A stretch of 24,247 nt of DNA from Pigoraptor vietnamica. Lineage: Eukaryota; Opisthokonta; Filasterea. This document shows positions 2,373 through 22,436 of the stretch, piece after piece. The notes under the pieces are model-generated. The model made no database searches, was not told where the DNA came from, and saw nothing but the letters and a program-made list of their open reading frames with translations. Within the stretch, counting starts at the first letter, position 1; every line of letters starts with the position of its first letter. Location: contig CALSCQ010002680.1 in assembly GCA_943704525.1 (NCBI GenBank), positions 1-24,247 of the forward strand. Reading direction: 5' to 3'. A program made the position numbers and the translations under genes.

Positions 2373-5273
2373 TCACTTGTCCGTGAGCGCGCGCACGCCG
2401 GTCCAGTTGGGTGGCGGCACGTAGTCCGTCTCCTTCATGAAATCGAGGAGGACGCGCGCGGCGACGCGGAGGTGGTCCGTGGGCGTGTCGTACTTGGACA
2501 GCATCTCGCGCGCCTGTCGCCAGCGCCCGTCAATGTAGTGGCCGATGGCGGCTTCGTAGTGCGCCTTGGTCTCCGCGACGGCATCCGACTTGAGGGTGAG
2601 GATCTCGGTGGTGAAGTGGTCCTTGCCCGTCGCCGTCAGGAAGCGCGGGTTCAGCGTGTAGAGGAAGACCGCCGCCCGCGAACCCTTGAGATTAACAATG
2701 TCAATCTTGAGGAAGAGGCCGCGGTACTCGGACGGCACGACCGAATAGAACTGGCCGCTGAAGAGGTTGTCGACGCCGTACTGCTTCGTGGCGCTCTCGA
2801 GACGCGCCGTAATGTTCACGTGGGGGGAGAGGTAGCTCGCGTCGACCTTGTAGTTCGACCCGATCGGTCCCTCGATCGCCCAGCCGACGTGGAACCCAAA
2901 GCCCATCTTGAGGCGATAGTTGGGCATCACCTTCTGCAGCCGCGCGACCATTCCGCACAGCACGTCCGAGCTCACGAGGCCCTCCTGCACCTCGAGAAAC
3001 GACTTGAGCGTGCCGACGGAGAGCTGCGCAAGCAGCGCGACGCTCTGCTCGTGGCCCGCGAGCGAGTTGTCGCTGTGCTTCTGCACTGCCGCAATGTCGT
3101 GAGACGACGGCGACCGTTCCGCCCCGCCGTTCGACACGGCAAGCCCGTCTCCCACGCCGCCCGCGACCTGGCCCGGCAGCGTCACGCCGTTGTGGTCGTT
3201 GCTCGAGCCGTCGACATCCTCCGAGACGACAATCATCGCCACGGGGTCGTTTCCGTCGTCCGTCGAGACAGTGACCCCCGCGCCGGGCTCCTTCGCAGTG
3301 CTGCCGCGCGGCGTGCGGCCCTTGGGCGTCGTCGTCGCCGCCGACGTCGACTGCGTGTTGCGCCCCGGCTGGTTGCCGCTCGGTGGCCGCGTGCCGTCAG
3401 CGCGCGGGTCGACCTCCGCCGGCTTCCAGACGAGAAGGAAGGCATCGCCAATGTTCTTGTTGGGCGAGCCGCTATTCCTGCACACGGCCGAGTGCACGAC
3501 GTCGGCTATCTGGTTGACGAAGAGCATGACGTCCTCCTTCAGGTGCTCCGTGACGTCCGTGAACGTGCGAATGTCGCAGAACCCAAAGATCGCGCTCATC
3601 TTACGACCGGGGACCATCGGGTGGAGGTCGCCGTCGGTGCTCATGTTCTCCGAGATGATCTTTGCGCCCGCCGTGCCAAAGGCAATCTGCAGCAGGTATC
3701 CCAGCTTGCTGATCATCGTCATGAGGAGCCCGGTCTCGTACTGGTTCTCCGCCTGCGTCCCATACGTCGCCACGTTCATGAGCGGGTTCGTCGCGAGGCC
3801 CGTAATGATCGACGTCATCTTGCTGATCGGGCCGATCACGAGCGTGTTGAGATCGCGCTGGAAGAGCGCGTTGCCGACGACGAGCAGCACGATAAGCGAG
3901 ATCGTGAGAATGATGCTGAGGACCGCCTGGAACTTGACCGACGAGCGAATGCTGTAGTACGCGAGGCCCAACCCGTTGGCGCTGACGAGCTTGAGGTACT
4001 CGCTCTCCCTGAAGTCGTGCTCAATCGCATACGGCGTGCCGTAGTACGGAAACTCGGCCCACGGCACGCGCAGGTAGAGGATATCCACAAACATGACCGA
4101 ATACATCGTCGCCATTGCCGTCGCGTCCGACGACGCGTTGAGCGACCACGAGAGCTCCTCGAGGCCGTTCTCCAGCGCGTGCACCGACGTGTCTGACGAG
4201 TCCTCGGTGAAGTTGAAGAGGAGGAGGAGGACGATAAGCCCGACGACCCACTTGTTCGTTGTGCTCGCCTGCAGCTTCGTGCCGACCTTCGTCGGTCGCA
4301 GAATGTCCTCGTCGTTTTCCTCTTGAAGCTTGGCGGCGCTGCCCGTGACGCGGTCCTTGCGCCAGAGGCGGACGATTCGGACGACTCGCAGCATGCGCGC
4401 AATTCGTGTGCTCGCGCGCGCCGCACGTCCCGCCCGCGCCACGGAGAGGTTCGACAGGGCGTTCGCGATGGCATCGCTGCCGAAAAAGTGGACGACGTCC
4501 GGAAGCAGCGAGATGACCGACAGGAAATCGAGGAAAAAGAAAAGCCGGCCGACGTACGCCGTCCCGTTCGCGATGCACATAATCACAAACTCGACCACGA
4601 AGAGAAAGAAGACGATCACCGACACGAGCTGCATGCCGTAATCTGCCGACTTGGGAAGCGCCGCCTGCGTAAAGTCCGCGGCGAACAGCACCCAAATCGT
4701 CGCCACCGTCATGACGATCGACACAATCGGGCTCTCGATGATACTCTTGCACCAGGCGATGAACGGCGACGCGTCCATAAGCGCGCGCAGCTTCTCCGGG
4801 TCCATCTCCGTAGCCGCCACGCGCATCTCCTCGCTCGTAAAACTCGGCGCAAGCGAAAGCCGCGCCGCAAGTGACTCGCGCATCTTTCCACTCGCAGCCC
4901 CGTTGACCTCGTCCGCGCGGAGGCCGCCCTCTGCGTCCTCCGCAAGATCGTTCAGGTTGCTCCCGCGTCGCAACGGCCGACCGGCGGCTTGCAAGAGGCC
5001 CTTGAGCATCTCCGACGGTCGCCGCCGTTTCTTTATGCTTTCCCGCCCCGTCTCCGAGCCCAAGAAGCGGCTCGACGCTCGCCGCATTTCGGACGTGTTG
5101 ACAATAATGGCGGACTGAATCGAGGGAGCGTCCGACGGCCGCTGCACGTCCACGGGCGTGACTTCGCCATCATCCATCCACACGGCGACGCCGTTGGAGA
5201 TTCGCAGCCGTGGGTTGGACGCCGCGCGTGCAATCGACCCATGACGGGGCGAGCCCGGCGCGGAGTCCCCCAT
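2373..5273 (-). CDS. Voltage-sensor-like / class III adenylyl cyclase fusion, intronless
   Basis: A 966-residue membrane protein predicted to make cAMP from ATP. Visible order: basic, Ser-rich cytosolic tail (1-180) with three RRxS sites (Ser67, 87, 105); S1 about 183-203; S2 214-236; S3 243-263; S4-like helix 279-305 with nine arginines; a fifth helix 341-355; a roughly 90-residue loop with sequons at Asn354 and Asn379; a sixth helix 450-468; a HAMP-like linker; then the cyclase domain (about 557-875). Catalytic residues follow class III rules: metal-binding Asp567 (FCDIR) and Asp610 (KNIGD), adenine-selecting Lys606 (guanylyl cyclases have Glu) and Asp811, transition-state Asn820 and Arg824. 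One chain holds all of them, so a homodimer with two sites is expected. A Pro/Ser/Gly/Thr-rich insert (about 618-742) splits the domain. No potassium-channel GYG filter is seen. The start ATG at 5273 opens the frame. The gene has no introns although its neighbours have many. Channel-cyclase fusions are known from ciliates and apicomplexans, but this order differs. Confidence 0.93.
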   Translation of the reverse strand: MGDSAPGSPRHGSIARAASNPRLRISNGVAVWMDDGEVTPVDVQRPSDAPSIQSAIIVNTSEMRRASSRFLGSETGRESIKKRRRPSEMLKGLLQAAGRPLRRGSNLNDLAEDAEGGLRADEVNGAASGKMRESLAARLSLAPSFTSEEMRVAATEMDPEKLRALMDASPFIAWCKSIIESPIVSIVMTVATIWVLFAADFTQAALPKSADYGMQLVSVIVFFLFVVEFVIMCIANGTAYVGRLFFFLDFLSVISLLPDVVHFFGSDAIANALSNLSVARAGRAARASTRIARMLRVVRIVRLWRKDRVTGSAAKLQEENDEDILRPTKVGTKLQASTTNKWVVGLIVLLLLFNFTEDSSDTSVHALENGLEELSWSLNASSDATAMATMYSVMFVDILYLRVPWAEFPYYGTPYAIEHDFRESEYLKLVSANGLGLAYYSIRSSVKFQAVLSIILTISLIVLLVVGNALFQRDLNTLVIGPISKMTSIITGLATNPLMNVATYGTQAENQYETGLLMTMISKLGYLLQIAFGTAGAKIISENMSTDGDLHPMVPGRKMSAIFGFCDIRTFTDVTEHLKEDVMLFVNQIADVVHSAVCRNSGSPNKNIGDAFLLVWKPAEVDPRADGTRPPSGNQPGRNTQSTSAATTTPKGRTPRGSTAKEPGAGVTVSTDDGNDPVAMIVVSEDVDGSSNDHNGVTLPGQVAGGVGDGLAVSNGGAERSPSSHDIAAVQKHSDNSLAGHEQSVALLAQLSVGTLKSFLEVQEGLVSSDVLCGMVARLQKVMPNYRLKMGFGFHVGWAIEGPIGSNYKVDASYLSPHVNITARLESATKQYGVDNLFSGQFYSVVPSEYRGLFLKIDIVNLKGSRAAVFLYTLNPRFLTATGKDHFTTEILTLKSDAVAETKAHYEAAIGHYIDGRWRQAREMLSKYDTPTDHLRVAARVLLDFMKETDYVPPPNWTGVRALTDK

Positions 5274-5531
5274 TGCCGGAGATTAGGCCGCTGAGGGCCC
5301 CTCCGGCGCCGCTCCGCTCTGTTCCTTCGCTCTCGCAAACACCTTGGAGGGGCGCGTTGCTATAGCATGGCGTACGACAGACGGGGGCCGACCCCACGCC
5401 GAGAGAACGAGATGCCGACGCTAATCACAAGCGCGCGCCTGTTGTGCCCTTTCGCTCGAAGCGTCCCACTCCTTCTTCCTTCTTCTACGGGGTCTGTCGT
5501 TGTGGTGCGCCCACTGTTTCGCTCCGAAGCG

Positions 5532-5563
5532 TCTCTCTCTCTCTCTCTCTCTCCCTCTCTCTC
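5532..5563. repeat. (TC)n microsatellite
   Basis: About 32 bp of TC repeat interrupted twice by an extra C. It lies about 260 bp upstream of the cyclase start codon, and reads GA on the cyclase strand. Pyrimidine tracts of this kind are common in promoters or 5' leaders, but no function can be assigned. Confidence 0.9.
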
Positions 5564-5666
5564 CGTTTTCCTCTGAGTGCTGCTGTTGACTCGCCGTTTC
5601 GCGTATGTTGGAAGTTGAACTGTCTCGGCGCTTTTTTGGGTGCTGGAGACAATTAATTTGAATATA

Positions 5667-5692
5667 GGTCGTATTTTTGGCAAAATATGACC
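5667..5692. repeat. 26-bp near-perfect inverted repeat
   Basis: Arms GGTCGTATTTT and AAAATATGACC pair at 10 of 11 positions around a 4-nt TGGC spacer. The repeat lies in the AT-rich island about 395 bp upstream of the cyclase ATG and about 595 bp upstream of the CH gene ATG. It could be a dimeric DNA-binding site or a hairpin. Confidence 0.75.
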
Positions 5693-6120
5693 CAATTTTC
5701 AATCTATCGGAGGGGCAAACTGCCGGTTGCCAAGGACAACGCCCTTTCTGGCACTATTACTTGTAAGGTCCCATTCGGTTCCGTGTTGGACTTTATTTGA
5801 CTACAACTCGAAAAAACGCGTGAAATTCGAATCCAACCAAGTTAAATTGTTCGACAGTGTCCATGTCTTCAAAATTTTGCGGCGCAAATTCAAATAAACG
5901 GTCGAACACACACCATTTTATTCAGAAAGGAAGAATTTTGACCCCATATTTACCACATTTCCAATTTGTTTCTACCCGCGAGTACGTGTCCAGATACATC
6001 TAAACCAAGACGGTGTCGCGCGCCATACATGACCGCGAGAGCACACAACACATCAGCCCTGCGCGCTTAGTACTCACCACCGCTCATCGAGCACCATTGT
6101 GCCAAAGCCTTCTTCATTTG

Positions 6121-6177
6121 GCGTGTGTGCGTGTGTGTGTGGGCGGGTGTGTGTGTGTGTGTGTGTGGGCGTGTGGC
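6121..6177. repeat. (GT)n microsatellite
   Basis: GT repeats interrupted by GGGCGG and GGGC, ending about 110 bp before the start codon of the giant CH gene. They probably lie in its promoter or 5' leader. The alternating purine-pyrimidine sequence could adopt Z-DNA, which is inference. Confidence 0.9.
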
Positions 6178-6285
6178 GTCTTCTCTTCCCGCTGCACACT
6201 TTCATCGAGCGGTCCTTGGCGACCGTTTGCGGAAATGGGTGTCCCTTGAGTTTAAGCGCCGGAGTGGCCCCGCCTAAGCGGCGAC

Positions 6286-9200
6286 ATGGCGTCGGCAGAA
6301 GTGGCGTCGGTGTCCGCGGAGGCACACCCGCAACCGCCCGACGCCCTCAACACGTCGCTGCAGTCGGGCTCGCTGCGTTCGCCGTTGGTGAACGTCCACG
6401 CAGAGACGCCCGCGCCCCATCACGAGCGGAGTGGGCACGGCGAGCATGGAAAGCATCACCACGGGCACCATGGCCACCACAGCCACTCGCGAAGAACTCG
6501 CATCAACAATTTCCAGCGAGCCCAGGCGCGGCGTAGCGTCGCTGACGAGGAAGACGCGCACGTTCACCTCGCCAACAGCATCTACAGGGTCAGCTTTGAC
6601 GCGACGAGGGCTTCGGTGCCTGGTTACAAATCCGCGCGCAAAGAGGCGCCGCATCGCGCGTCGGATCCCGAGGCACCGACGCTGGCGTCGATGTCCGTGG
6701 ACAGCCTGTTTAAGAGTCAGAGCCGCAATGGGGACGCGTCTCATCGCACAGCGAACGTAGCTGCGATGGGCGCGCCTGCTGTCGCCGTGAACGTGACGTC
6801 GACGGACAAGGCGTTGGTCGGGTGGTGTAACGAAGTGCTGGCGGCGAGTGGGAGGGCGCCGATATTCAGTCTCGGCGAAGACTTGAGGGACGGCGTAGTG
6901 TTGCATGCGATCGCAGAGACGCTGTTTGGAACGACGCTCTCGACCCCGTGCATATCGGTGGGCGGATGGGCGTGAAGAGCACAGGGTGGCTCTTCGCCTT
7001 TCTGCGTATTGCTGGCGGAGCAGTCTATTCGCCACCCTTCCCAGTGGTCTTTAGGGGTGGAAGTGCCTGTTTTGTTTGATGCAAATTTTTTTTTCTCAGT
7101 CGCATAATTTTTTTAGCCGTGCGATGCCTTGGGACCCACAGTGCGCTCACTGGCGCGTGTTTTGTCTGGCAGCCGTGTCGCTTCCGCTTTGAGAAGGTGA
7201 CGAACGTCGAGATTGTTGTGAACGAACTCCGGTTCAAGGGCGTTGCGTTCCCGTACACGCTCGAAGGTGCGTGCGTGTGTAGTGCGGGTCTTCGCTTGTG
7301 CTCCTGCTTGGAATAGTGCATGCACTCGGCTATTTCCTGTTGCCTGTGTGCGTGTGCTGCGTCCTGCTGTTCGTGTGCGTGTGCTTGTGCGTGTGAGTTT
7401 GGTGTGTTTCTCAAAGGAAGTACTACTTCCTATGCCTGTGTGCGTGTGCTGCGTCCTGCTGTTCGTGTGCGTGCGTGTGGATCTTGGTGTGTTTAGCTTA
7501 GCATGAGTTCCGTCTTTATTTCTTTGTATCTTTTCTAAGGGAAAGCAGCTTAACACGAGTTCCTTCTCATTTCGCAGATCTCGTCGAGGGTGACCTGGCC
7601 GCCACGAAGACGCTGCTGTGGCTTCTGTTTCTCAACTTCTACGCTTTCAAATTTGGTAAGCGTTCGTGTTGTCAACGTACTTTCTCTGCGCGTTCCATGC
7701 ACAGGGGCGCGCGCTCAAGCTCGTCTTCCGTGTCGTAGAGGGCCTTCGGTCCAACGTCGATCTCTGCCGCGTTTTGCTGAAATGGGTAAAAGACCTGTGC
7801 GAGGACGAGGACGTCAGTGCGACGTCTTCGCTTGTGGAGTGGTGGGTGTAAACAACGTAGCTATTCCAGCTAATGTTGTGTGACACTGAACGGGATAGGC
7901 CGTCGCACAGCGCCGCCTTGTCGCTTATTCGCACTCTCTATCCCCCAAACACACTCGCACTCACACACACACACACACACACCACATCCATCAGCTTTTG
8001 TTACGAGGCAACACTTCCACTGCTGTCCGCGAAGTTCTGCACGGCGGATGGCTGGGGATCGTCGCAGGTGTGTTGTCGTTGTTGTGCGTCCCAGAGCGCA
8101 ATTCCACAGGCTGAATTCGGTCGCTGTTTCGCCATGGGTAACACCCAACATTTATTGTCTTGCCGCGCTCTCACACACGAACACGCACATGCACACCCCT
8201 TTTGCACTCGCACGCACAGCGCAACATGAATCCGACTCGGCTCTCCCTCATCAAGCTCGCGTCTGCGTTTGGGATGGCGGCGTTGATTTCCGTCGACGAC
8301 GTCGCCCAGAAGGCCGTCAGCCTGGAAGCCGCCGCCGTGTACCTCTGCATTCTCAGACACAAGCTCAAGCTGCCGGTGAGTGTCCCCGTTGCGCCTGCAT
8401 TCGTGCACCATTCTCCAATTACACTAGAGGGCTCCTTCGTTACTATTGGCTGCAACACTGAAGGGCAACGTTGCCCCCGCGCAGGCGTTCACATCACAAG
8501 ATCCCGTGGACGCCGACGAAGAGCACACGGACGCGTGCCCCGACGTCGGCGGCACCATCGCGCCGCCACAGCGCCCGTCCCTTGCCGAGCGCCCGAAGAG
8601 CGCGCCGCCCGGACGGCCGCACCGGCAGGACACGGCGGAGGAGATTGAGCTGAGTTTCCTGCGCGGCGGATCCATTCGGCGTAACGATTCTGCGTCGGCG
8701 CTTCCCGCGTCGCCGCCCCCGCCCGCCGAAGCCAACGTGCTGTCGCTGTCATCCTCCGCTCGGATCGGAGCGAGCTTCAAGCGCGTCGGCCAGCGGGCGT
8801 CGATGCTCGCGCGCTTTTTCAGCATTCGAAGGTCCCCTTCCCCCGCGCCTCCGGCGACGTCTGCAGCGCCAACGCCGGCGCCCAAGAAGGAGCAGTCGGA
8901 CGGGACGATGGAGTCCACGTCCACGGCCAGCACTGTTGTCCACGCTCCGAAAGACGATTCGGCAGCTGCTGCGCAACCGCCCGCCGACACCGGTGCGCTG
9001 GCCGTATCGACCACAGCGACAACGATGGGTGGCTTGCTTGCTGTGCCGGACGCCCGATCATCGCGGACGGCGCCGCAGAGCCCGCGCACGCCGCAGCCGC
9101 CACAACCCGCTGCCACGCCCGAGCAGTCCGCGTCCAAGCGCAACGTGATGGTGTCGTACCCTTCCCTCCTGCACCTGAGCATGCAGCGCAGCGGGTCGTG

Positions 9201-12200
9201 GGCGCGGTTTGACGTGGTGGAGGGGGCAGTGGCACCCGTGGAAGACGACACGGCGTCCGTGGACTTTCTCTCCCCCGAAATGGAGTTTGACGGCCGCCGG
9301 TCGCCCACGGGCTCCGAGTCGACGTACTCGACGGCGTCGTCCGTGATGTCATCTCTGAGCGTGTCGACGACGAACCGCTCGTACGTGAGTCGCACGAGCC
9401 GAACGGGCACGCTTCGGTCCGTGGCGTCGACGCTCAGCAGCATCAGCGAGGACGGCAAGCCGCATCTCGTGGGTGCCGGCGTTGGCGGTGGCGGCAGCCT
9501 CAGCGATGTGAGCGAGGGCGCGGACGACACGCTCCTAAGTGCCGCCGAGCGCATGGCACACAATGCGGAGCTCGGAAGCCAAGCGCGCCTCGCGTCGTCC
9601 AGTCGGCGATCGCACGCGCCAGACGCCCTCAGTGTGAGCAGCCAGGGCAGCAGCATCGCGGAACGGCAGTCCGTGCGGAGCCAGCGTTCCCTGCGTTCGT
9701 TCGTCCCGGGCACCACATCGCCGGCGCAATCGTCGCGCGAGTTGGCCGGCGTGCTCCGCGCGCGCCGCCGCTCTCTGCCGAAGCGCCAGAAGTCCGTGTG
9801 GTACAACAGTGACAAAATTGAGGAGCGCGAGAGGCAGCGGGCGGAGGCCGTCGAACAGGTGCGCTTTCGACGTCCCGAGGCGCTGCGGTCCCGCATCGCG
9901 GACGACAACGACGGCGTGTGCTTGCTGTACGGCCCTTACGCGACGTTTTACACCGCCGACGTCTCGAGCGACGCGTACGGCGACTACGACTCGAAGGTGA
10001 ACCGGCTCATCGCGGTGACAGGGCCCGACGCCGAACACCAGGCCGAAACGGACGGCCGCCGCACGCTGCGCTCGATGATACACCTTGCGACGAGCGAGAC
10101 GCGCCTTGCCGTGGTCGCCATCGATGGCGCACAGCCGCCCCTCGAGCCCATCCCGAGTTCCCCCTTTCCGCCCGATGCGCCCGCCCCGGATGCGGCTGCG
10201 CAGGGCATGACGCGCTCGCCGTCGGTGTTGGAGGAAGTGTCGTCCGGGACCGTCCCGCCTGTTACTGTGGGCCACGCCGTACGCCGCCGCAGCTTTGCTT
10301 TGGAGACCGCGGTGTTCTCTGTGGGCGCGGAGGGTGCGCAGGAGCCTTCTGGCGAACTGCAATCCCCCGAAAGCCCCGCGCGTGCGGAGACGGTGTCGGC
10401 TGCGACTTCGCCGATTGCGCCGGAGGGTCGTCCGTACGACGATTTGGCAGAGTCGCACGCGCGGTTGCAGCTCGAATACGTTGACCAGATGGCCGAAATG
10501 CTGCGCGTGAACATGGACGGCATCGGACCGCACGCCCACGAGGCGGCAGAGAAGGACGCCGTCACGAGCGCCGCCCTGTCGCCGGCCATTGCGCAGCTGA
10601 GCGCCGCACGTTCGCCGGTGCTGCGCCGGGGCGCCACAGACGGTAACCTCTTGAGGAACTACGGGGTTTCTACGAACGCCGAATTCCCGTCCACGAACGA
10701 GCCGACGCTTTCGCGCGGTCGTTCCACGGCCGCCCTTCCGTCCGTGAGCAACTCGAGCAACAACGGCGCCCCTCGCCAACCGCCGTCGCCGCAGGGCATG
10801 GGCTCGCGGACGCCGTCGGTCGTTTCGATAGAGAAAGCGTCGTTCGCACCCGCCCCGCGCCTCGTGATGATGCGCGCATCGAGTCTGCGCCTGTCTATGG
10901 AGGACGGCGCAGCGCCAAAGCACCTCGATGCTTCCCAAGCCCCGCGAGCCGCGCCCCCGACACCCCCTTCGCCTCTTGGAGCGCCCGCGCCACCCGCCAT
11001 GGAGGTGGAGAGGGCCGTACCGTCCGCGCCGCCGCTGTCGGCACTGGAGAAGGCAGGCGAGGCCCGCATGTCTGGAGAGCCGGGTTTTTGCAGGGGGGCG
11101 GTGATGGACAGCCTCAACCCGCCGCCCCCGTATTGCCTTCGTACGAAGAGGCCGTGGCCGATCTCCGGCGCCGCTCACGCCCGGCGACCGAGTCGGCTAC
11201 ACTGATTGTTGCGCCCTCCTTGCCGCTGTACGTGGCTGCGGGAGAGCGCTTTGACGCAAAGCATGCGACCGAAGAGCACGACGACGACGACGACCAAGAG
11301 ACACAACTGCAGGTCGAGAGTGCCGCGGAGAGCGCACGCGAAATCCCTCCACCGCCGTCGGAAGCGCTCTCGCCCGACCGTGCGTTGACGGTGCCTGACG
11401 AGGGGCAGTCGTCGTCACGGCCACGACGCACGTCACTTGTGCGTGCGGACAAGGACGTTGGCACGGATGTCGAGCCGGCAGCACCTGCGTACGTGCGAAC
11501 GGAGGAGGCCGTCGAGTCCTCAATACTCGGGGGCTCTGCTGTCGCTGCTGGCGTACTAGTGGCTGCGCCAGCGCGTCGCACGTCCGTAGACCGCACTCCA
11601 ACTCCGGTTGTGAGCGACGCTCCGGCATTCACGAGTGTGCCTGTGGCGGAGGACGTAACGAACCCTCTCGTTGCCGAACAGGAAGCGTCTTCCGCGCCCA
11701 TTGCACGCCGCATGTCTGTGAAACGTCACGCGCACGACGTCGAGCACCTCCGCGCGGGCGGCGAGTCTGCGCTCGTTTTGACCGTGCCTGTAGGGACCTC
11801 GTCAGAGGAGGAGCGCCCGCCCCCGACTTACGTGGAGGCAACGGACGCGGCCGGCGACGCCGAAATTCCCGCGCCACCGAAGCAGCGCGCGATTCCGCAA
11901 GCGGTAATCGTCCGACAGGTGGTCGACGAGCCCGCGAAAATGGAGCACGTCTCTGCGGCGGAAGTGGCGGACGTCGTTGCCGTTGCGGTGGTCGAGGGAA
12001 CGCACGGCGCCGCGCGGCCCGTGTACATCAAGCGGCGACACCACGACGTAGAGGCAGGACAGACTGTACGGAGGGCGTCGTTCTCCCAGCATGAGGATGA
12101 TGACGTGCCGCTCACACTGGAGGTCGCACCGGTCGCCGTGCCTGTGTCCAATCCGCCCACGGAGTTGCCCCCGCTACTCCGTACTCTCCCGCCGCCCGTG

Positions 12201-15200
12201 ATTGCGCGCAGCGCGGAGGAAGCCGTCGTATCACCATCTGTCGTCGAGCCTGAAGTCCACGGCGAGGGCGTCGAGGTCAAGCGCGTGCTCTTGGAGGGCA
12301 CGCGCCCGCGCGCGCTGAGCCTGAAGCGCAGGCATCACGACGTGGAAGCGCTGCAGCTGAGCGTCGGCGATCAGCTCCCTACGCCAAGTGCGATCGTCGA
12401 CGCGACGCAGAGTAACAAGGAAGAGTTTGAAAGGACTTCGGAGACCGATTCCCTTCCCTCGCTGCAGCGCGCACTGCCAATGGCCGTGGTGTCCAAGCCA
12501 CGCGAGGGCCACGTGCAAGGCAGCGCGTCTGCGGCGCCCGAACCGCTCGTGTCGGAGGCGTCAGTTTCCGTCGCCGAACAGTCGTCGCAGCAACGTCCCC
12601 GCGTACTCAACGTACGCCGACACAGTCACAACGTTGACGAGGACGCGCGGCGGCTCCAGGAGATTGCGAACGAGGCCATCGTGGCCGAGCAACTCGCTGT
12701 TGACGTCGAGCACGCACATGCGGACGTTCAGCCAGTAACGGTTGTCGCTCAGCGAGCGCCGGATGTGACTGTGCAGCAGGCGCGGACCGTGGCGCCAGCG
12801 ATCGAGCAGGCGGTGCGTTCACCGCCCGCGAAAGAGGACGAAGCGTCCGAACCCAAGCCATCGCAACAGAGCGTGCCCGTGGCCACGGACGAGATTGTGG
12901 CCGAACCGGCGCACGTTGGAGAGACGGGATCGAGTCCGCCCCTTTCACCTGCCGAAGTTTTGTCGCCGGTGGAGGACATTGCGCTTTCGTCAGAGCTTGC
13001 AACGCCCGCCGCCGTTGCTCCGTCCTTGGAAGAAGAAGCTGTTCTCAGCGAAGTGAGCCTGGAGACCTCGAGCGACGAGGGAGGCGCGGACTACTTTGCG
13101 CGCTCGGTCTCCCCTCAGCACGCGCCACTCGCGGTGGTCGAAGAGGTCCCGGCCGAGAGCGTTGCTGCCGTGGACGCTGGCGTGGCGCGTGAAGAGGACG
13201 AGGGCGAGAAGTCAACGACGGACGCCGAAGTAGACGTTGCGGCCAGCGCGCAGTCGATGGACGATGACGCGGATGATATCATGCAGTATGATCACGACGA
13301 GCCGAGCGCTCTCAATGCGCCGGCCGGCCACGTGACGGATGCGGCGTTCAGCGACGGAGAGAGTGCCGAGGCGGCTGCGGACGTGCAGGCGTCGTCGCTA
13401 CCAGTGATCCGCGTGGACTCTGCGTCGTCGAACGGCGAGGGAAGCGTGCGGGACGTCGACGCGCCCCTCAGTGACCTTGTGCTCAGCCCATGGGAGGACG
13501 AGGGCGGCGCACACGTCGACGACGACCCCGAGTCCCTGTCAACGCTGTCGTCGGATACTGAGGAGGAGGTCGTCGCGGACGATGTGGGAAAGTTGGAAGC
13601 GGCCGATTTGCACGGAGCGGCCACCCCCCCGGATGACGCATCGCCTGTCTCCGATGCCGCTGTACAGAGTGTGGAAAGCGCGACCGTGTCGTCCACCGCC
13701 GTTCGCCCTGCGGAAGTGCGGAGTGCCGTGCACGTGTCGGCCGTCGTGGTGCCGTCAGAGTGGGCACACATGCACGAAGCAGTGGAGGAGAACGACGGGG
13801 CTGCCGCAGAAGAATCTGCGGGCAGTGCGAGCGAGCCCGCGCTGTCGGCACTGGAGGCGTCCGTGCTTGTGCCCGTTCCCGCCATCGAGCCGCTTGCGGA
13901 CGACGACACTTTCGCGCGTGTCTCTCCCGTGGATCTTGCGGGCCTGACGTTGGCGAGTGCTGCGGACGAGCCCGTGACGGCGGACGATGTCGGCGGTGAC
14001 GGCGACGGTGTGCTGAACGGCGTGCAAGAAGGTGGGTTGGCAGCCGGGGAGATTCGCGACGCTGCGACCGTGACAGAGGAGGACGAGCCTGCGGCGGACC
14101 CCGTGTCCACGAGTATCACCGCTGTCGCAGCAACTCTTGCGGACGCCGCAACGCCGTGGGGTGTCGCAGAAGCGCACAGCGCACAGCCGTACGTTGTTCG
14201 CAGCGGAAAGCGCTTTTCTGCGAGGGATGTCGTTGTGGTCGAGGCCGCCGACGCCGCGCCCGCCCCGTTGCACGAGCCTGCCCCGGAGGACGTGCCGAGT
14301 GATGGGGAGGCGGCAGTCGTCGAACACACCGAAGGGGCAGACGGGAGCACTTTGACCGAAGATGTGGCTGCTCTCGCCGACGTGCAGGAGGCCGAGCATT
14401 CGACAACGGACGTCTCGCGCGAGGACGAAGAGCAGGCGCGGGAGCTCGAAGGGGCGGAGGAATCCGTCGTCGTACCGCGCGGCTACAACCCCTTCGTCGG
14501 GGACGACGCTGAGCCGTCACCAGCAGACCTTGGGCCGTTCGGTAACCCGTTCCTGCCCGCGGAAGGGTCCCCTTTTGCGCTGGCGATGACCGTTGCCACA
14601 GACGACGCACCGCCTCCGCAGCCGGGCCTGAATCCGTTCGACGAGGACATCAACGAAGCGCAAGAGACTGCGATGGCCGGCACAGAGGCCGACGGTTCAC
14701 GTGCCGAGGTAACGCCTGCGGTTACTGCAATGCGCGACGACGAGAGCGGCCACGGTGGCGTTGAGGACGCGGAGTTGGCCGAAGGCGAGCAGGAGCTTGC
14801 GGCGCTCGAGTCGCTCAACAGTCTGATGGAGGCGTTCCTCGCGAGTGAAGAGGTGATCGTCGTCGGCGACGTGATCGGAGAGGGCGCGGCAGAGGGCGCG
14901 GCAGCGGAACCGTCCGATCAGCTCGAGGCTCGCGTTGATCAACTCGAGGCTCCCGTTGAAGAGCTGCATAGCGAAGAGACGCCAAACGCTTTGGAGCCGC
15001 ACGTTCCATCGCCCGCTGACGCGACCGCTGTGGTTGAGAGCGATGTGCTGCCTGTGAGCGAGACGGCAACTGAAGCACCGTCCGTTGGCTCTGACGTTGC
15101 TGTCACGGCAGCCGCTGACGCCATTGTCGTCGACGCGGTCGAGGAGTTGGACACTGCAGCGCCTGCGGACGGCGGTGCGGGACCGTCCGGGAATGCGCCC

Positions 15201-18200
15201 ACAGACGCAGTCGACGACCTTTCTCTCTCTGCGCGTCGGCGTTCGGTGGTGTTCACCGACCACGTGTACCTCATGTTCAAGCCGGGCATGACCGAGCCAT
15301 TGAAGGAGGAGCCCGACGTGCTCGGCTCGGACAGCGAGAGCGATGAGGACGACTACGACGACGAGGGCGACAGCGAAGAAGAGAGCGAAGAGGACGATGA
15401 TGACAGCGATGGCCACGAGGATACTGTCGCGGTCGTCGAAGTCACGAACGTCGGCGCCGGTGAGAGCGTCGGAGCGAGCGCGCATACCGAGAGTGCCGTA
15501 CGTGTCGTCCCCGCAGGCACTGTGGCAGTGGCTTCTGCGGTCGCTGTCGAGGCGGAACCGGTGGCCGATCCGTTGCAAGTGCGCACAGATGATGCCGCGC
15601 ACCCGGCCGAAGTGGGCGGTGAACTCGCGGGTGTCGTTGTCCCCCCGGTCGCCGTGCCAATTCCGGACATTGCCGTGTGGGCGCCAGAGGGGGAGGCCGC
15701 CGGCACGCACACGCCGCGCGAAGACGGCAGCGATTCCGACGCGTCGGAGTACTTTTCGCCCCCGTCGTCCCCGAGCCAGCTCCTGGGACGTGAGGCGCCC
15801 GCGGTGGTGGAAGCTGCCCTGCCCTCGATGGTGTTAGACGAGCCGGCGCTTGAAGTGGCGGAGACGCACCTGGCGACTTCGGAGGCGTCGTGTCAGACGA
15901 GCGATGTCCAGGACGAGGGCAGGCATGAGGGAGAGCAGGCCCCTCTCGTACACGAACACGAGCGGGAACAGGTGTCGGATGCTGTCGAGCCGCCTGCAGA
16001 GGCGTCTCCAGCCGCTCGTCACACAACGGAAGAGGACGAGGATATTATGCCGGCCGTGTCTCTGAGACAGGCAGAGTCGATTGAGAGCGAGCGGCCCACG
16101 TCTCCGTTCAACGTAACGCTACGCCACGTCGAGTCCGAACAGCCACCGGCGGATGTCGAAGAGGGTGTCCCTCTTTTTGGCGGGCTCAGACACGTGGAGA
16201 TAGAAGCGCGCGACCCCGAGCGCCCGACGTCGCCGTTCAATGTCTCTCTGCGTCACGTGGACACCGAGCCCTCTGCGGATGCCGAAGGAGGCCTCCCGCT
16301 TTTTGGCGCGCTTAGGCACGTGGAGACGGGGTTGCGGGAGCCTGAGCCGGAGCGCCCGGCGTCGCCTTTTAACATTTCACTACGTCACATCGAAGCCGAA
16401 GCGAGGGAAAGCGTCGACGACGCGCCGCAGTTTGGGTCCCTGCGTCACGTGGAACCCGAGCCGCGAGTGGTCGAAGCACCGGCGGTCCCGTTTGCCGTGA
16501 AGCTGCGCCACATTGACCGGGAACTGACGCTCGCGGACGACGAGAGGGTCCCTTCGCCCGCGTCACGTGGCGACGGCGGCTCGGATCATCGAGACGAGGC
16601 GCCCCCCGTTGTGCTCGCACGCGTCGAGGAAGACGTCGGACCGAACGACGAGGGCCCGCCTGTCTTTGCGCCACTGCGGCACGTGGAAATCGAACCCAAG
16701 ACGGCCGAACGGCCAGTGTCTCCCTTCCAGGTGTCCCTCCGTCACGTGGACCGCGAACTGACCTTGGCGGACGATGACGCGGCGCCGAGCTTGCCACTGA
16801 GGCCCGTTGAGGCGAGCATCGCCGAAGAAGAGCCGGAGGATGTCGTGACGCCCGTCGACTTTCACACGTCGGCAGCGACCTTTGGGGTCGCGTTGAACGA
16901 GGTGGCTGCCGACGTGCGAGAGCGGGAGGCGTCGTCCGACTATGAAGAAGAGGACGCGCTTGTCACGCCGCACTTTGCCGCGGCCGCGTTTGGCATCCAT
17001 TTGAGGAGAGTGTCACGTGCCGACCCAGCGCCCGTCGTAGAATCGAGCGAAGGCCATGGCGCGCTTGCGGAAGATGGTGCTGCGAGCGCCGAGAAAGGCG
17101 ATCCACGGGAGCCGATTGCCGAGAAAGGCGATCCACGGGAGCCGATTGCTGACGAGTCAGCGCCTGCGGTGCCCGTCGTCGCGGACGAAGCGGTGGACGC
17201 GTCTGCGCTGTCGGTCGAAGCAGCTGGGTTGGACGCGACTGCGTTTGCGGATGTGCCCCAAACAGCACCCGATCGTCGGTCCGGTTGGGCGACCTCGGCC
17301 ACGCGCGCAACGGTCGTGCACGTGTCCACTGCGTCGCAGGAAGAGGACGTCTTTGAGGGGCCGCAGTACCGTCCGCCACTGGAAGCGTTTGCGGCGTCTC
17401 TCCTGGGCAGCTTCCGTGACGACGGCGAAGACAGCGGCTTCGGTTTCGTCGATGACGACGGCTTGTTGGATGGCTCGCCCGCGGAAGTGCCCTCGTACGC
17501 CTACGAGCCCGCAGTGCAGCTCGCACTCGGTGATTCGTCTGGAGTCGAGAGCGGTGCGTCTGACGTGGTCGAGGCGGCTCTCGAAGACGAGCATGAGGCG
17601 CCGATTGTGACGTCTATGCAAGAAGATGCTGCGTCGGACGTCGCTGAGCACTCAACGCCCCCCACGGCACCGAGAGAAGAGAACAACGCCGAAGCTGCGC
17701 CCGTCGCCGACGCCCCTTCGTCCCCGCCGTCGCAGAATGATGAAACTGACGACGGCTCTGGTCTCGCGTCAGCCGCAGCCGCGCCGGCACAGAACGAGGC
17801 TGTTACTAAGGTCGTTGCGGTCGATGCGGCGGCCATCACCCCTTCGCTTGGAACGGTAGACACTGACATTGCGAATCAGCCCGCAGCCGTGGAAGAAGGG
17901 GGCGAGCGCGCTGACGTGACGTCGGCATTGGTGGAGGAGTCCCTCGGAGATGTCGACGAGGGCATACCATCGCCCGCCTCGCTCGATGAGCTGTCCGACG
18001 CATCGGAAACGCTTTCCTCTGTGTCGGAGGCTTCCGCTGGTGCCGCGGGGAACCCGGCGGAACACGTGGCGGAGGGTGCCGTTGAAGATGGAGCGGACGA
18101 AGGGAAGGCGACGGTGGTCGTTGTGGCCGACGTAGCGCGTGTGGGCGGGAAGACCGATGACGACGAGGTCCATGACGTCATGCCGGACGTCTTGTCTTCG

Positions 18201-19925
18201 CAAAGCGATTTGGACGAAGGCGGCGAGGGTTCGGAAGCGCGCGCCGCGAACGGCCGCGAGGGCACCTCACGTGACACGCTGCAGGCCTCGCTGACGCTTG
18301 AGGAGGAGTCCATCGCCGATGCGCTCGGTTTGGGTGCACTTTCCCCGACCGCTGCGCAGGAGCACGGCGCGGAGGACGCTCGGGGCGCTCAAATCGACGC
18401 AGCGACAGAGGAATACCGAGCCGTCGAAGTCGATGCGGCATCCTCGCTGGCCCACGAACGCACCCCCGGGGAGCAGTCCGCTGCACTTGGTGTGGAGGAC
18501 GAGCACGTGGATGTGCAGGCGGCCGTCCCTCCGACTGCCGAAGAGGACACGTCGGACGTGACACGCGGAGCGGAGCCTGCTGACACGCACGCGGACACTG
18601 CGCCCACCTCAACGCACTCGCCAGCCGATGCGGCGCGCTTGGAGGCCCTCGTGAGCGAAAAGGCGGCGCTGTTGATGCGTGCGAAGAAGTTGGACGAGGA
18701 GAACGAGGCGATGGCGCGCGAGCTGGTCGCGATGCGTCGCAAGTACCGCGAGCTGTCGCGCACGGCACCCGCGGGCGGCGACGACGGCAAAGGGAAAGTT
18801 CGGCGCGTGGACCTGTCGGAGAGCGTCGAGAAACGGTACAACGCGCTCATCGGCAACAGCATTCGCCCGGAGACGGCAGTGGACGTCGCACGCCTTTTGC
18901 CGATCGACTTTGAAAAACTGGCGCTTGAGAACGAGCGCCTCCGCGCGCTGGAGAGTGACGCCGAGCGCAAGAAGGTCGCACTCGCCAAGGAAAACAAAGA
19001 GCTCAAGCGCATGCTCTCGGACCTCACGAAGAAGGACCGGCACGAGGACACGCTCGATGCATCGGCCGTGTCCGCCCAACTGTCGGCGTCGAAGCGTGCG
19101 TTGGCGGCAGCGTCTCCGAGCACCACGCCGCGTCCATTGCGCCCGGGTTCCACGCGCCCTGTCGTCGTGCGCACGACGTCCGTCCCGCCGGTGCCGACCG
19201 TGAAGGAGGGGACGACGTCTGTTGCGTGGTCGCGAATTCCGATGAAACAGAGAACGATCAGCGCTCGTCCGGACGAGCGCGCACCCGCGTTGTCGTCGTC
19301 GACGCTGTCTCGAAGTGCGACTGGCAGCCTTGCTTCCCTGGACGCCTCCGCTGGTGCGGGCGCGCTGGCATCGCCATCGGCACGCAAGCGATCGCCGTCG
19401 AACACGCCGAGCGCAAGTCCCAAGCCTGCTGCAGCCGCCCCTCTCTCTCCCTCTGCGCCGCGCAAGACGTCTCCCGCTTCGACTGCGAAAGCCACTCCGA
19501 CGAGCAGTAAGGCGGACGAAGACCGCACAACGGCGCCGACTGTTGCCAGCGCAGCGCGGGCGGCTGCGGCGGCGGCATCAAAGACGAGGACGAGTCCGCT
19601 ACCGAAGCGCGCGACGTCTATTGCGGGTGCCGCACCCACTACGCCAAAGACGCCGTCGACGCCGAAGGCAGCGCCGACGCCCAAAACGACGCCTGCAATG
19701 TCTCTGGCAAGCGCAAAGGCGCTTGGGATCAAAGCCCACTCGGTGTCGGGCGACTTTCCCACGTCACCCCTTGACCTCTTTGCGCTGGGAACGCCCCGCC
19801 CGCCGACGGTGGGGGGCGGCAAGAGGCCCGCGGAGGGACGCGCGCGGCTAGTGCGCGCTCGCATTGCATCGCGATCGCCGTCGCTCACGGACTCTGCGGC
19901 AGAATCGCTCGAGGGGCGCGCGTGA
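6286..19925 (+). CDS. Giant tandem-CH-domain scaffold protein, about 4,180 aa, 8 exons
   Basis: Proposed exons: 6286-6957, 7173-7266, 7578-7655, 7739-7841, 7995-8067, 8220-8375, 8485 to 11016 (or 11004), and 11094-19925. Phases agree throughout and the stop is TGA. Exon 1 opens with a His-rich, disordered stretch. The first CH domain spans about residues 174-284 (DLRDGVVLHAIAETL, then EDLVEGDLAATKTLLW). A more divergent second CH starts at LLKWVKDLCEDEDV and ends near residue 390. Tandem CH pairs commonly bind F-actin, so cortical or cytoskeletal anchoring is inferred. The remainder is low-complexity Ser/Pro/Ala/Glu-rich sequence with RRHHDVE repeats, three NPF motifs, an acidic tract, LRHV repeats, a coiled coil (about residues 3748-3889) and a basic Ser/Thr/Pro tail. 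Exon 4-5 borders are the least certain, as is the exon 7-8 junction, where the frame changes. I recognise no named orthologue. It could be two genes, but no good start codon follows the junction. Confidence 0.82.
7341..7473 (+). repeat. Direct duplication in intron 2 of the CH gene
   Basis: A 41-bp unit beginning TGCCTGTGTGCGTG occurs identically at 7341-7381 and 7433-7473, an offset of 92 bp. The flanks are also similar (TATTTCCT and TACTTCCT before, TTGGTGTGTTT after). This points to a tandem duplication of about 90 bp. The 311-bp intron (7267-7577) is TG-rich and contains no other feature I can support. Confidence 0.85.
7962..7982. repeat. Short (CA)n tract before a splice acceptor
   Basis: About ten CA units lie just upstream of the proposed 7994 acceptor of the CH gene, in the intron between the proposed exons 4 and 5. 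CA-rich intronic elements can modulate splicing in animals; that role here is unproven. Confidence 0.85.
11005..11093 (+). other. Proposed short intron joining the two long frames of the CH gene
   Basis: The frame of exon 7 runs to a stop at 11203-11205, while the 8.8-kb frame is open from before 11088 in another phase. A consensus-like acceptor, TTTTTGCAG, ends at 11093. Donors at 11005 (GTGGAG, 89-nt intron) or 11017 (GTACCG, 77-nt intron) are both in phase 0 and restore the long frame. These lengths match other introns here (83-109 nt). Neither donor is a strong consensus. A sequence error in the G6 run just after the acceptor is the main alternative. Confidence 0.6.
11424..12656 (+). repeat. 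RRHHDVE repeat family, about 97-103 residues per unit
   Basis: Four clear copies of a basic motif of the type xVKRRHHDVEA have their key Lys/Arg codon at 11721, 12030, 12324 and 12615, spaced 103, 98 and 97 residues. A weaker copy (LVRADKDVGTDVE) lies at about 11442. Each unit also carries a hydrophobic line of the type LPxLxRALPxAVV about 55-60 residues before the motif. The sequence between is acidic and variable. These are protein repeats in the giant CH scaffold, about residues 1350-1755. I know no named family for them. Confidence 0.8.
14487..14639 (+). other. Cluster of three NPF motifs in the CH scaffold
   Basis: Asn-Pro-Phe occurs at codons 14487-14495, 14544-14552 and 14631-14639 within about 51 residues (contexts YNPFVGDD, GNPFLPAE, LNPFDED). 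NPF is the classic ligand of EH domains (Eps15, EHD, intersectin families) in endocytosis. The local sequence is acidic and disordered, as usual for such ligands. Binding is inferred. Confidence 0.7.
15231..15422 (+). other. RVxF-like motif followed by a Ser/Asp/Glu tract
   Basis: A basic site ARRRSVVFTD (15231-15260) is followed by a Tyr/Phe-containing segment and then a tract of roughly 37 residues made mainly of Asp, Glu and Ser (about 15309-15422). RSVVF fits the protein phosphatase 1 docking consensus [RK]x[VI]xF, and RRRS fits a PKA-type site. The acidic Ser tract looks like a casein kinase 2 substrate. All of these functional readings are inference from short motifs. Confidence 0.5.
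16047..17019 (+). repeat. Alternating 21-residue LRHV repeats in the CH scaffold
   Basis: The Leu codon of LRHV-type motifs lies at 16119, 16185, 16248, 16311, 16380, 16440, 16503, then 16614 (weak), 16674, 16737 and 16797 (LRPV). Steps are 60-69 nt, except one gap of 111 nt. Two subtypes alternate: A, RPxSPFNVxLRHVD/E; B, PxFGxLRHVE. Two degenerate copies (FGVALNEV, FGIHLRRV) and a leading SLRQAES extend the block to about residues 2888-3211. The F-x-x-x-L-R pattern recalls short actin-binding motifs such as the DFRxxL of MLCK, but I cannot claim homology. Confidence 0.85.
17088..17147 (+). repeat. Perfect 30-bp tandem duplication inside the giant exon
   Basis: Two identical 30-bp units (17088-17117 and 17118-17147) encode AEKGDPREPI twice. 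Perfect identity at the DNA level, including wobble positions, indicates a recent in-frame duplication. Confidence 0.97.
18627..19050 (+). other. C-terminal coiled-coil region of the CH scaffold
   Basis: Heptad-like Leu/Ala/Met-rich, charged helices (LEALVSEKAALLMRAKKLDE; EKLALENERLRALESD; KVALAKENKELKRMLSDL) are the only strongly helical stretch in the second half of the protein, about residues 3748-3889. Dimerisation is the usual role. It is followed by a basic Ser/Thr/Pro-rich tail of about 290 residues with many TPK units, a composition seen in microtubule-binding tails; that comparison is inference. Confidence 0.75.
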
Positions 19926-20294: not shown

Positions 20295-21049
20295 CTACGA
20301 CGCCTCGATGGTGGGTATCCAGAAGGACTGCGCGCAAAAAAAAAAAAATCTTGAGATCGCAGGAAAGTGAAGCAACCGAAGCGTGCGCGCGTCTATGTGC
20401 TGCATGCGTCTGCGATTGTGCGGCATGCGTCTGCGATTGTGTGGTGGGTGTGTCTGCATCCCTGCGTGTGCGCAAGTGCAGCCTGTGGTGCATGCACGCG
20501 TGCATGTGCGGGCCTAGCACGGTCAACGAAACTCACCAGCACCGAAGATGCCGACGCCATCTCGCAAAATTTGTTGTTCCACGCCACGTGACCGACCGGC
20601 TGGTCGTGTCCCGTGAGCACTGTGACAGGATGTCCGGTAGCCACGCTCCACACATGCACGCGCCCGTCATCGCCGCCTGTTACAGTATTAGATCTTAACC
20701 TTATGTTTGCACCAACACACAGCACAACGCAACGCACATATACAACCGCGCCGTGCTACGTGCGTACGCAGACAGGCACGAGTACACACCGCACACGACA
20801 AACTGTCCGTCCGGCGAGAAGCGGCCGCGGAGGGGCATTCGCGAGGCGTTCGAGTGCCCGCTGAACGATGCCTTCCGGAGGCCCTGGAATGCATCCATCA
20901 AATACAGCGCGTGTCCCTCGGTCGATATGAGAAAGTATTGGCCGGTCGGGTCACCGCAGACGTCTGTCCATGCGCTCCTGCGCGGCGAAATTGTCACAGG
21001 GTGGTCTATGAGAACTGGCAAACCAACGAAAGAGGGGGAAAAAAAAAAA

Positions 21050-21115
<66 letters not shown>

Positions 21116-22436
21116 GAACAAAGCAGACAGGAGGGATCGAACTTGAATACTTACTTGTCGTGGGTGTCCTTCAACATGAGTGAATCGAAAGGACCCTGGG
21201 CAATAGGTTCTCGGTTAAGACCACGCGAACACACACCCCAACGCACACGCCAAACAAGCAGGCCTATACACAGGGGCGAGCGCACCCGCGCCCGCACACG
21301 CACACTCAAACACACACGCACACGCAGACACAAAACACGCACCCCGTGGACCTTGCGGAGGTCGTACAGCTTGAGCACTTCAGAGTTGAGAGCGACCGCA
21401 AAAATGGTTCCCGCCGAGTCGTAAGTGACAAGCGCATTGCCCTGCACTTGCAGCAAGCCCTGCGGTGACGCACAAGGACTGAGTGACATATGCAGTGTGG
21501 ATGACACACGTACTGCAAACGAAACTGAACTACTTCGTCAGTCCGCAGAGACGTTGTCGCTTTTCACACGCGAGTGTGCACACATGCATCGAAACGACAA
21601 CAGCGAGGGTTGAGAGTTACCTGACAGTTTGGGGAGCGCGTGTCCCACCAACGGACTGTCTGGTCGACCGACGACGACAAGAATGTGTCGTCCTTCGGCG
21701 AAACGGCAAGGCCAACCACGCTGCGAAAACAACACAGCCGTATGAGGAGGCGCCGTTAAGCGTGAAGTGCACACAGACATATTGCGCGCTGGAAATACGC
21801 GTATGCAATGTATGCGTATCAGTGTGTGCGTGCGGGCGAGTGCATGTGCAAGGTTCATCAAGACTACATGCCAACCCACCGGTCCGTGTGACCCTGAAAG
21901 TAGCGAATGTACTTGTTGTCGTGAAGGCTAATGTAGCGAATTGTGTCTGCACATCGAAGGCGGCGTCACACCCACGCAACTCATGCCCAGGCACCTGCCC
22001 TCCCACGCACACGCGCGTACACTACAGCGCACAAGATTCTGAAGAAGCCGGCAATACTTACTGTCAAGCTTAGTCGAAGCGTAGATTGCGCTCAGCGGCG
22101 CATGGAGAGGTCGAATAAGGTTGACGCCATACTTTTTGCTATACACCGTCTTCTTGTGCCTGTGCGTATGTGCGTCATGTGAGAGAGAGAGAGTGCGTAG
22201 ATAGTTACAAATAAGAAGAAATGCAATCCACCTCAGCACGCGTGCATGATGGGTCGAACGACGTGTGACACTCACAGTCCGCTGACGGCGTCGTAAATGT
22301 TGATGGATTCGCCGTCGTTGCTCGTGATGCAGAATTCGCCAGCAGTGTCAAATTCCACCGAATTGAGCGTGTGCTGACTTTCCCTGAACGTGCGCGCAAT
22401 CTGGAAGCTGCGCATAGCCTCCACCGTCAACCTCAT
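20295..22436 (-). CDS. WDR82: WDR82 / Swd2 homologue, 9 exons, complete
   Basis: WD40 protein of the SET1/COMPASS histone H3K4 methyltransferase and of PNUTS-PP1 transcription-termination complexes; nuclear. Exons on the minus strand: 22436-22276, 22159-22062, 21946-21880, 21720-21621, 21459-21343, 21195-21155, 20977-20790, 20676-20537 and 20327-20295. They splice to 945 nt, 314 residues plus TAG, with all phases agreeing; human WDR82 has 313. Diagnostic matches (from memory of the human protein): start [100 protein letters not shown] and the end FWIPTIEAS. The seven-bladed propeller should be whole. The last exon encodes only ten residues, and exon 6 is 41 nt. Donors are GTGAGT/GTAAGT-like and acceptors CAG. 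The start at 22436 is fixed by alignment with MKLT of human. Confidence 0.97.
20402..20443. repeat. 21-bp tandem duplication in the last WDR82 intron
   Basis: Two 21-bp units beginning GCATGCGTCTGCG differ at one position. About 50 bp further on (20491-20506) lies a perfect 16-bp palindrome, CATGCACGCGTGCATG. Both fall in the 209-bp intron before the terminal exon. Confidence 0.9.
21039..21114. repeat. Poly(A)/poly(T) tract in WDR82 intron 6
   Basis: Eleven A, one C, then 64 uninterrupted A on the plus strand; this is poly(T) on the WDR82 strand, inside the intron 20978-21154. No duplicated flanks or element body were found beside it. The length may be unstable or inaccurately assembled. Confidence 0.95.

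Follow-up and report, generated by a model that had tools for sequence, protein, structure and literature searches.

A candidate voltage-regulated adenylyl cyclase without a recognizable pore, and a same-genome paralogue without an S4 arginine ladder

Introduction

The closest described counterparts of the protein treated here are two proteins of Phytophthora parasitica, PPTG_13136 and PPTG_13761, in which an N-terminal Ion_trans voltage sensor with an S4 motif is joined to a C-terminal cyclase. The available parts of that report (PMC12223298, Sci Rep 2025), to which all statements made here about it are confined, present the two as a bimodal family whose pore helix shows no homology, note that proteins like these occur in at least 90 organisms with flagella or cilia, and give stramenopiles and alveolates as the range of the family; antibody staining of PPTG_13136 was found mostly on one flagellum. 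Here we describe a gene, with the product named P0001, from a stretch of 24,247 nucleotides (the window: contig CALSCQ010002680.1 of assembly GCA_943704525.1, positions 1 to 24,247). On balance we think that it probably encodes a class III adenylyl cyclase that is regulated by voltage and has no pore, and that belongs to this recently described protist kind, in which a voltage sensor and a cyclase are combined.

How membrane potential sets cyclic AMP (cAMP) in the flagellum is an old question. In Paramecium, hyperpolarization has been linked to a rise in cAMP, with a channel-cyclase as the candidate (PMC4588038, as far as the accessible part of this source goes). Such K+ channel-cyclase fusions have been known for longer, and are treated in the portions available of PMC3283738, PMC10651576, PMC12414865, PMC5746546 and PMC4588038. 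In a cyclase without a pore, voltage would be sensed independently of any ion flow.

Organization of the gene

P0001 is encoded by a single open frame at window positions 2373-5273 of the minus strand, which is without introns, specifies 966 residues, and has a GC fraction at third codon positions (GC3) of 0.87, as computed from the sequence. As read from its sequence, the predicted protein contains four helices S1-S4 with a full arginine ladder, a loop flanked by two hydrophobic segments, and a cyclase with its catalytic residues. The assembly that was searched amounts to 32.5 Mb in 1395 contigs, among which the window is contig C1112; introns and gene content mark these contigs as eukaryotic. 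The parts of the gene, from the N terminus of its product, are as follows.

4779..5273, minus strand: N-terminal region (residues 1-165), without family match and presumably cytoplasmic
4344..4778, minus strand: voltage-sensor-like S1-S4 (residues 166-310), from an Ion_trans match at 184-310 and, for S1-S3, hydropathy
4572..4628, minus strand: S2 (residues 216-234) with F225-x-x-E228, from hydropathy and residue check
4488..4544, minus strand: S3 (residues 244-262) with D249, from hydropathy and residue check
4350..4436, minus strand: S4 ladder (residues 280-308), ten arginines in register, from a shuffle test
4194..4250, minus strand: fifth membrane helix, TM5 (residues 342-360), from hydropathy
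3933..4193, minus strand: loop (residues 361-447), presumed outside, with sequon N379, G434-L-G436 and a weak hydropathy peak at 385-403
3876..3932, minus strand: sixth membrane helix, TM6 (residues 448-466), from hydropathy
3606..3875, minus strand: linker (residues 467-556), HAMP-like by eye only
3387..3605, minus strand: putative class III cyclase, first part (residues 557-629), with D567, K606 and D610
3024..3386, minus strand: low-complexity insert (residues 630-750, 121 residues), absent from the paralogue on contig C504
2634..3023, minus strand: putative class III cyclase, second part (residues 751-880), with S813, N820 and R824
2376..2633, minus strand: C-terminal tail (residues 881-966), with related tails on the C504 paralogue and, weakly, on a cyclase of contig C12

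The voltage-sensor half

Searched in full, P0001 matches a single Pfam family, Ion_trans (PF00520), over residues 184-310 (24.7 bits, E 1.6e-5), and the score rises to 26.9 bits (E 3.2e-6) when the 191-residue membrane segment is searched alone. Profile positions 7-119 of 241 are matched, that is, S1-S4 without the pore half, and a genome-wide Ion_trans search recovered the gene among 40 matches. S1, S2 and S3 stand out as hydropathy peaks (19-residue mean) at residues 183-201 (2.13), 216-234 (3.03) and 244-262 (1.78); S4 gives no such peak, as is expected from its charges. These are ten arginines, at positions 280, 283, 286, 290, 293, 296, 299, 302, 305 and 308, separated by hydrophobic pairs from R290 to R302. 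By a register count that permits one four-residue step, no shuffle reached ten in register, either of residues 161-330 (5000 shuffles) or of the whole protein (1000 shuffles), the maximum among the shuffles being six. The residues F225-x-x-E228 in S2 and D249 in S3 form what we take to be the charge-transfer-centre pattern of channel voltage sensors. With S1-S4, a basic ladder in S4 and acidic residues in S2 and S3, the segment has the sequence hallmarks of a voltage sensor, and the original prediction, made from the DNA letters without database searches, was correct in this respect; its coordinates are exact and the strand is minus.

A profile search was also made within the same genome, against 1479 entries made up of the open frames of 72 loci and the membrane segment of the C504 paralogue, a set biased towards channels and cyclases. 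At E up to 0.1 the first round returned six entries from three places, namely a voltage-gated channel on contig C58, a channel on C547, and the paralogue.

The cyclase domain

The cyclase part of P0001 was recognized by phmmer against the PDB, which aligned residues 779-876 or nearby with 5mbg (a photoactivated cyclase that we take to be bPAC; E 5.1e-9), 1wc1 (presumably CyaC) and others. Six catalytic residues, D567, K606, D610, S813, N820 and R824, were read from the alignment with 5mbg, the second half of which scores 30.1 bits and the first half (residues 560-616) a weak 6.0 bits. Over this first half P0001 shares 59% identity with the C504 paralogue, whose cyclase exon matches Guanylate_cyc (37.3 bits). 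In class III cyclases two aspartates hold the metals, a lysine together with an aspartate, threonine or serine contacts the purine, and an asparagine and an arginine stabilize the transition state. On the purine side the residue here is serine (S813), not aspartate. As aligned, the residue set of a class III nucleotidyl cyclase is complete, which upholds what had been claimed of the catalytic residues, and the lysine (K606) together with the hydroxyl residue suggests ATP as the substrate. The Pfam Guanylate_cyc profile itself matched neither the whole of P0001 nor its cyclase part alone, likely because the low-complexity insert splits the domain.

Genome-wide, Guanylate_cyc gave 96 matches, counted exon by exon and thus not equivalent to a number of genes, with none at the window gene or on C504. 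Among the other cyclases, that of contig C12 (L056, about 4362-8030, minus strand) has, by eye, a long Cache-like outer domain and a HAMP-like linker, unlike P0001.

The second membrane unit and linker

Between the sensor and the cyclase, hydropathy peaks at residues 342-360 (1.45) and 448-466 (2.77) flank a loop of about 87 residues that is presumed to lie outside. One sequon (N354-F-T) sits at the membrane edge, just ahead of the loop, and a second (N379-A-S) within it. Weaker peaks above 1.0 occur at 385-403 (1.26), 477-495, 515-533, 744-762 and 853-871; since the first of these lies inside the loop and approaches the value at 342-360, an additional membrane segment there would be compatible with the hydropathy. 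No K+-filter signature of the T-x-G-Y-G type is present in the sequence of P0001. Residues 331-560 contain a single G-x-G, G434-L-G436, which ends 11 residues ahead of TM6, and none follows TM6 up to residue 560, in agreement with the earlier statement that no GYG filter is visible.

The loop found no match in Pfam or in PDB sequence searches, and neither HAMP nor Cache/PAS was matched by Pfam in residues 340-509 at E up to 10, a search whose HMMER filters discard the majority of weak matches. The arrangement of helix, loop and helix that had been predicted, with its potential glycosylation sites, was recovered, and the HAMP-like nature of the linker went undetected. Two NCBIfam matches were set aside as chance, one to PhnE at 415-465 (22.7 bits, with a cut-off of 216.7) and one with an E of 0.22.

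A paralogue without the S4 ladder

A second gene of similar layout lies on contig C504 (L055, positions 4408-7377, minus strand), and was modelled as three exons encoding 814 residues, the splice sites being picked by eye without a transcript. Its cyclase part is 48% identical to that of P0001 and is without the 121-residue insert. Hydropathy gives the order of parts seen in P0001: a group of four hydrophobic segments, then a fifth and a sixth on either side of an outer stretch that also shows weak peaks, and then the cyclase, joined by a linker shorter than in P0001. The F-x-x-E of S2 and the aspartate of S3 are retained; the basic residues of S4 are reduced to K287, R289, R300 and R303, so that there is no ladder, and the protein has no Ion_trans match. 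In the stretch that corresponds to residues 331-560 of P0001, G-x-G is absent.

The similarity of the two proteins over S1-S4 is weak, the score being reached by 3 of 500 shuffles (6 of 500 for S1-TM6), and none was found over TM5-loop-TM6, where 302 of 500 shuffles reach it; such shuffles are a weak control, since they disrupt hydrophobic stretches. The shared layout of the second membrane unit therefore rests on order and hydropathy. It may be inferred that the paralogue is a former voltage sensor. What is new here is this same-genome paralogue, with the same order of parts and no S4 ladder, together with the hint on the lineage of the host given below; a pair of genes with and without the ladder constitutes a natural control.

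Proposed mechanism and alternative explanations

The active sites of class III cyclases are shared between two subunits, so the working form of P0001 would be a homodimer. A change in membrane potential would move S4, and this movement would be passed through the S4-TM5 linker to the TM5/TM6 pair and on to the linker of residues 467-556, which would re-set the cyclase dimer and change cAMP, perhaps in the flagellar membrane, where beating would be adjusted. The outer loop may act as a second input or only as a structural turret. A second, extracellular input is possible; the proposal in the original prediction that the loop senses a ligand gained no support from Pfam, from PDB sequences or from the low-confidence structure models.

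The alternative that fares best, which we nevertheless regard as unlikely, is that P0001 is a ligand-receptor cyclase, the outer loop being a Cache- or PAS-like sensor and S1-S4 a vestigial anchor, as those of the paralogue may be. The paralogue does keep the layout without the ladder, and the outer domain of the C12 cyclase, in the same genome, is Cache-like by eye. However, the loop of P0001 is shorter than 90 residues and without a family or structural match, and its intact ladder, F225-x-x-E228 and D249 would be difficult to account for if voltage sensing were not under selection.

We also consider it quite improbable that P0001, like the enzymes of ciliates and apicomplexans, genuinely fuses a six-helix channel to a cyclase, with TM5-loop-TM6 as the pore, G434-L-G436 as a possible filter, and ion flow accompanying or driving the control of the cyclase. 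The five hydropathy peaks and S4 do stand in channel order, with the weaker peak in the loop, the G-L-G lies at a short distance from TM6, and a purified Paramecium cyclase showed K+ channel properties (reviewed in the available parts of PMC4588038 and PMC5746546). Against this, the Ion_trans match ends with S4, a recognizable filter is lacking, the paralogue has no G-x-G in the corresponding stretch, and the G-L-G of P0001 is preceded by charged residues, unlike a pore helix. In the parasite proteins, moreover, the G-x-G sits after TMD6 (PMC3283738, in its accessible portion), where P0001 has none. That S1-S4 serves as nothing but a positively charged membrane anchor, as a match score at the Ion_trans cut-off and low-confidence structure models might allow, is very hard to believe in view of ten in-register arginines, the hydrophobic pairs between R290 and R302, and the acidic residues of S2 and S3.

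A number of points tell against a pore-less, voltage-regulated cyclase, or fail to lend it weight. The Ion_trans scores (24.7 and 26.9 bits) lie at the curated cut-off of 25 bits. The first-round similarities within the genome are weak (E 0.0018 to 0.1); in the second round the paralogue fell to E 0.27-0.58, and by the third and fourth rounds the profile had drifted until it spanned only some 50 positions around S4 and also took in a frame from a cyclase locus (L028, E 0.03), so these last two rounds add nothing. When S1-S4 was searched against PDB sequences, five rows came back, of which four belong to a G-protein-coupled receptor and one, at E 8.6, to a sodium channel. Single-sequence AlphaFold models were of low confidence (predicted local distance difference test, pLDDT, 38.9 and 52.3), and Foldseek on such a model returned no match at E up to 0.001 and one row at E 7.0 that is meaningless. 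The preference for ATP over GTP hangs on K606, from which it was inferred. No relatives outside the genome were found in the viral, prokaryote and plasmid collections searched with P0001 and with two-sequence alignments, a result that says nothing about protists; a DNA-pattern search in viral contigs gave 15 loci, none with a tblastn match at E up to 1. The literature searched, which left subscription journals mostly outside, held no report of voltage control or of a functional test of a pore-less cyclase. Within the available text on the Phytophthora proteins, PPTG_13136 was not differentially distributed by the paper's own quantification, the interval from sensor to cyclase is longer in PPTG_13761 (306 residues, compared with 246 in P0001), and the N-terminal helix counts are five and three, compared with four here (PMC12223298).

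A bolder extension of the voltage-regulated reading is that the window gene encodes a two-input (voltage and ligand) pore-less cyclase outside the stramenopiles and alveolates, accompanied by a voltage-blind sister of the same layout, from which the S4 charges and a portion of the linker have disappeared. This is improbable as a whole. If it were true, and if both paralogues dimerize, mixing of subunits could tune the cAMP response to membrane potential.

Host genome and window neighbours

The host is a single-celled organism that probably has motile cilia, since contig C341 (L087) encodes a protein homologous to ARMC4/ODAD2, which docks outer dynein arms (E 3.6e-240). No light-harvesting family was found in the assembly, and by this one marker the host is non-photosynthetic. 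There are two thymidylate synthase genes. The copy on C341 has no DHFR beside it, and the only DHFR match is fused to the other copy, on C788 (L078), in a stretch of 39% GC that looks virus-derived or like a contaminant in this GC-rich genome; a DHFR of the host itself was thus not found. In stramenopiles and alveolates DHFR and thymidylate synthase are normally fused; the unfused copy therefore tentatively suggests that the host may lie outside these groups, the published range of the family. If this is confirmed, the fusion of sensor and cyclase would be older or more mobile than it appears in print. TIM was not found in the assembly, although it is a general gene, which implies that the assembly is incomplete or that the gene was missed, and of EF-1A no more was recovered than the first exon, which lies at the end of a contig and does not reach the diagnostic insertion; no rRNA was recovered.

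The remainder of the window holds a frame with a calponin-homology domain (Pfam CH; 6286-6975, plus strand), the first frame of a gene, followed at 8446-19925 on the plus strand by two long frames, of 919 and 2945 residues, that overlap each other and are of low complexity, acid-rich and without Pfam match. At about 20396-21507 on the minus strand there is a WD40-like frame (20396-20737), with adjoining unmatched frames that may be further exons. Positions of about 1-500 and 21000-21100 carry a long (CA)n-type repeat and an A-rich stretch coding for poly-lysine.

Comparison with known systems

At the level of the enzyme, P0001 resembles 5mbg and 1wc1 in its catalytic domain, sharing with 5mbg the lysine and the purine-side hydroxyl; these proteins have no voltage sensor and carry other input domains. 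Ci-VSP, a phosphatase, and SLC9C1 (sNHE) are comparable in that a voltage sensor drives a non-channel activity (PMC10651576, PMC6052114, in the parts available), but their effectors are different and P0001 has two helices and a loop between sensor and enzyme. A pore-less cyclase of the kind proposed might also provide a scaffold for voltage-driven cAMP tools. The K+ channel-cyclase fusions of Paramecium, Tetrahymena and Plasmodium (AC-alpha) share with P0001 a six-helix channel-like part and a class III cyclase; the parasite fusions differ in the G-x-G that follows TMD6 (PMC3283738, accessible portion), which P0001 lacks at that place.

The nearest counterpart remains the Phytophthora family, matched by description and not by sequence: both combine, in one chain, an Ion_trans sensor, no homology to a pore and a C-terminal cyclase, and in both there are two paralogues in one genome and a flagellated host, the latter only probable here. 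The interval from sensor to cyclase is 246 residues here and 252 in PPTG_13136, whereas the differences lie in the helix counts, the longer interval of PPTG_13761, the possible position of the host outside the published range and the 121-residue cyclase insert of P0001, as judged from the available text of PMC12223298. The novelty implied by the original prediction finds no support in this comparison, as the same pore-less layout was already in print, with similar proteins noted in at least 90 organisms; that prediction had named an identical architecture being common as grounds for its rejection, and this has largely turned out to be so with respect to novelty, though not with respect to the biology proposed. 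Since the layout is known, on the part of that report available, from the zoospores of water moulds, P0001 looks to be one more member of a kind that has received little study.

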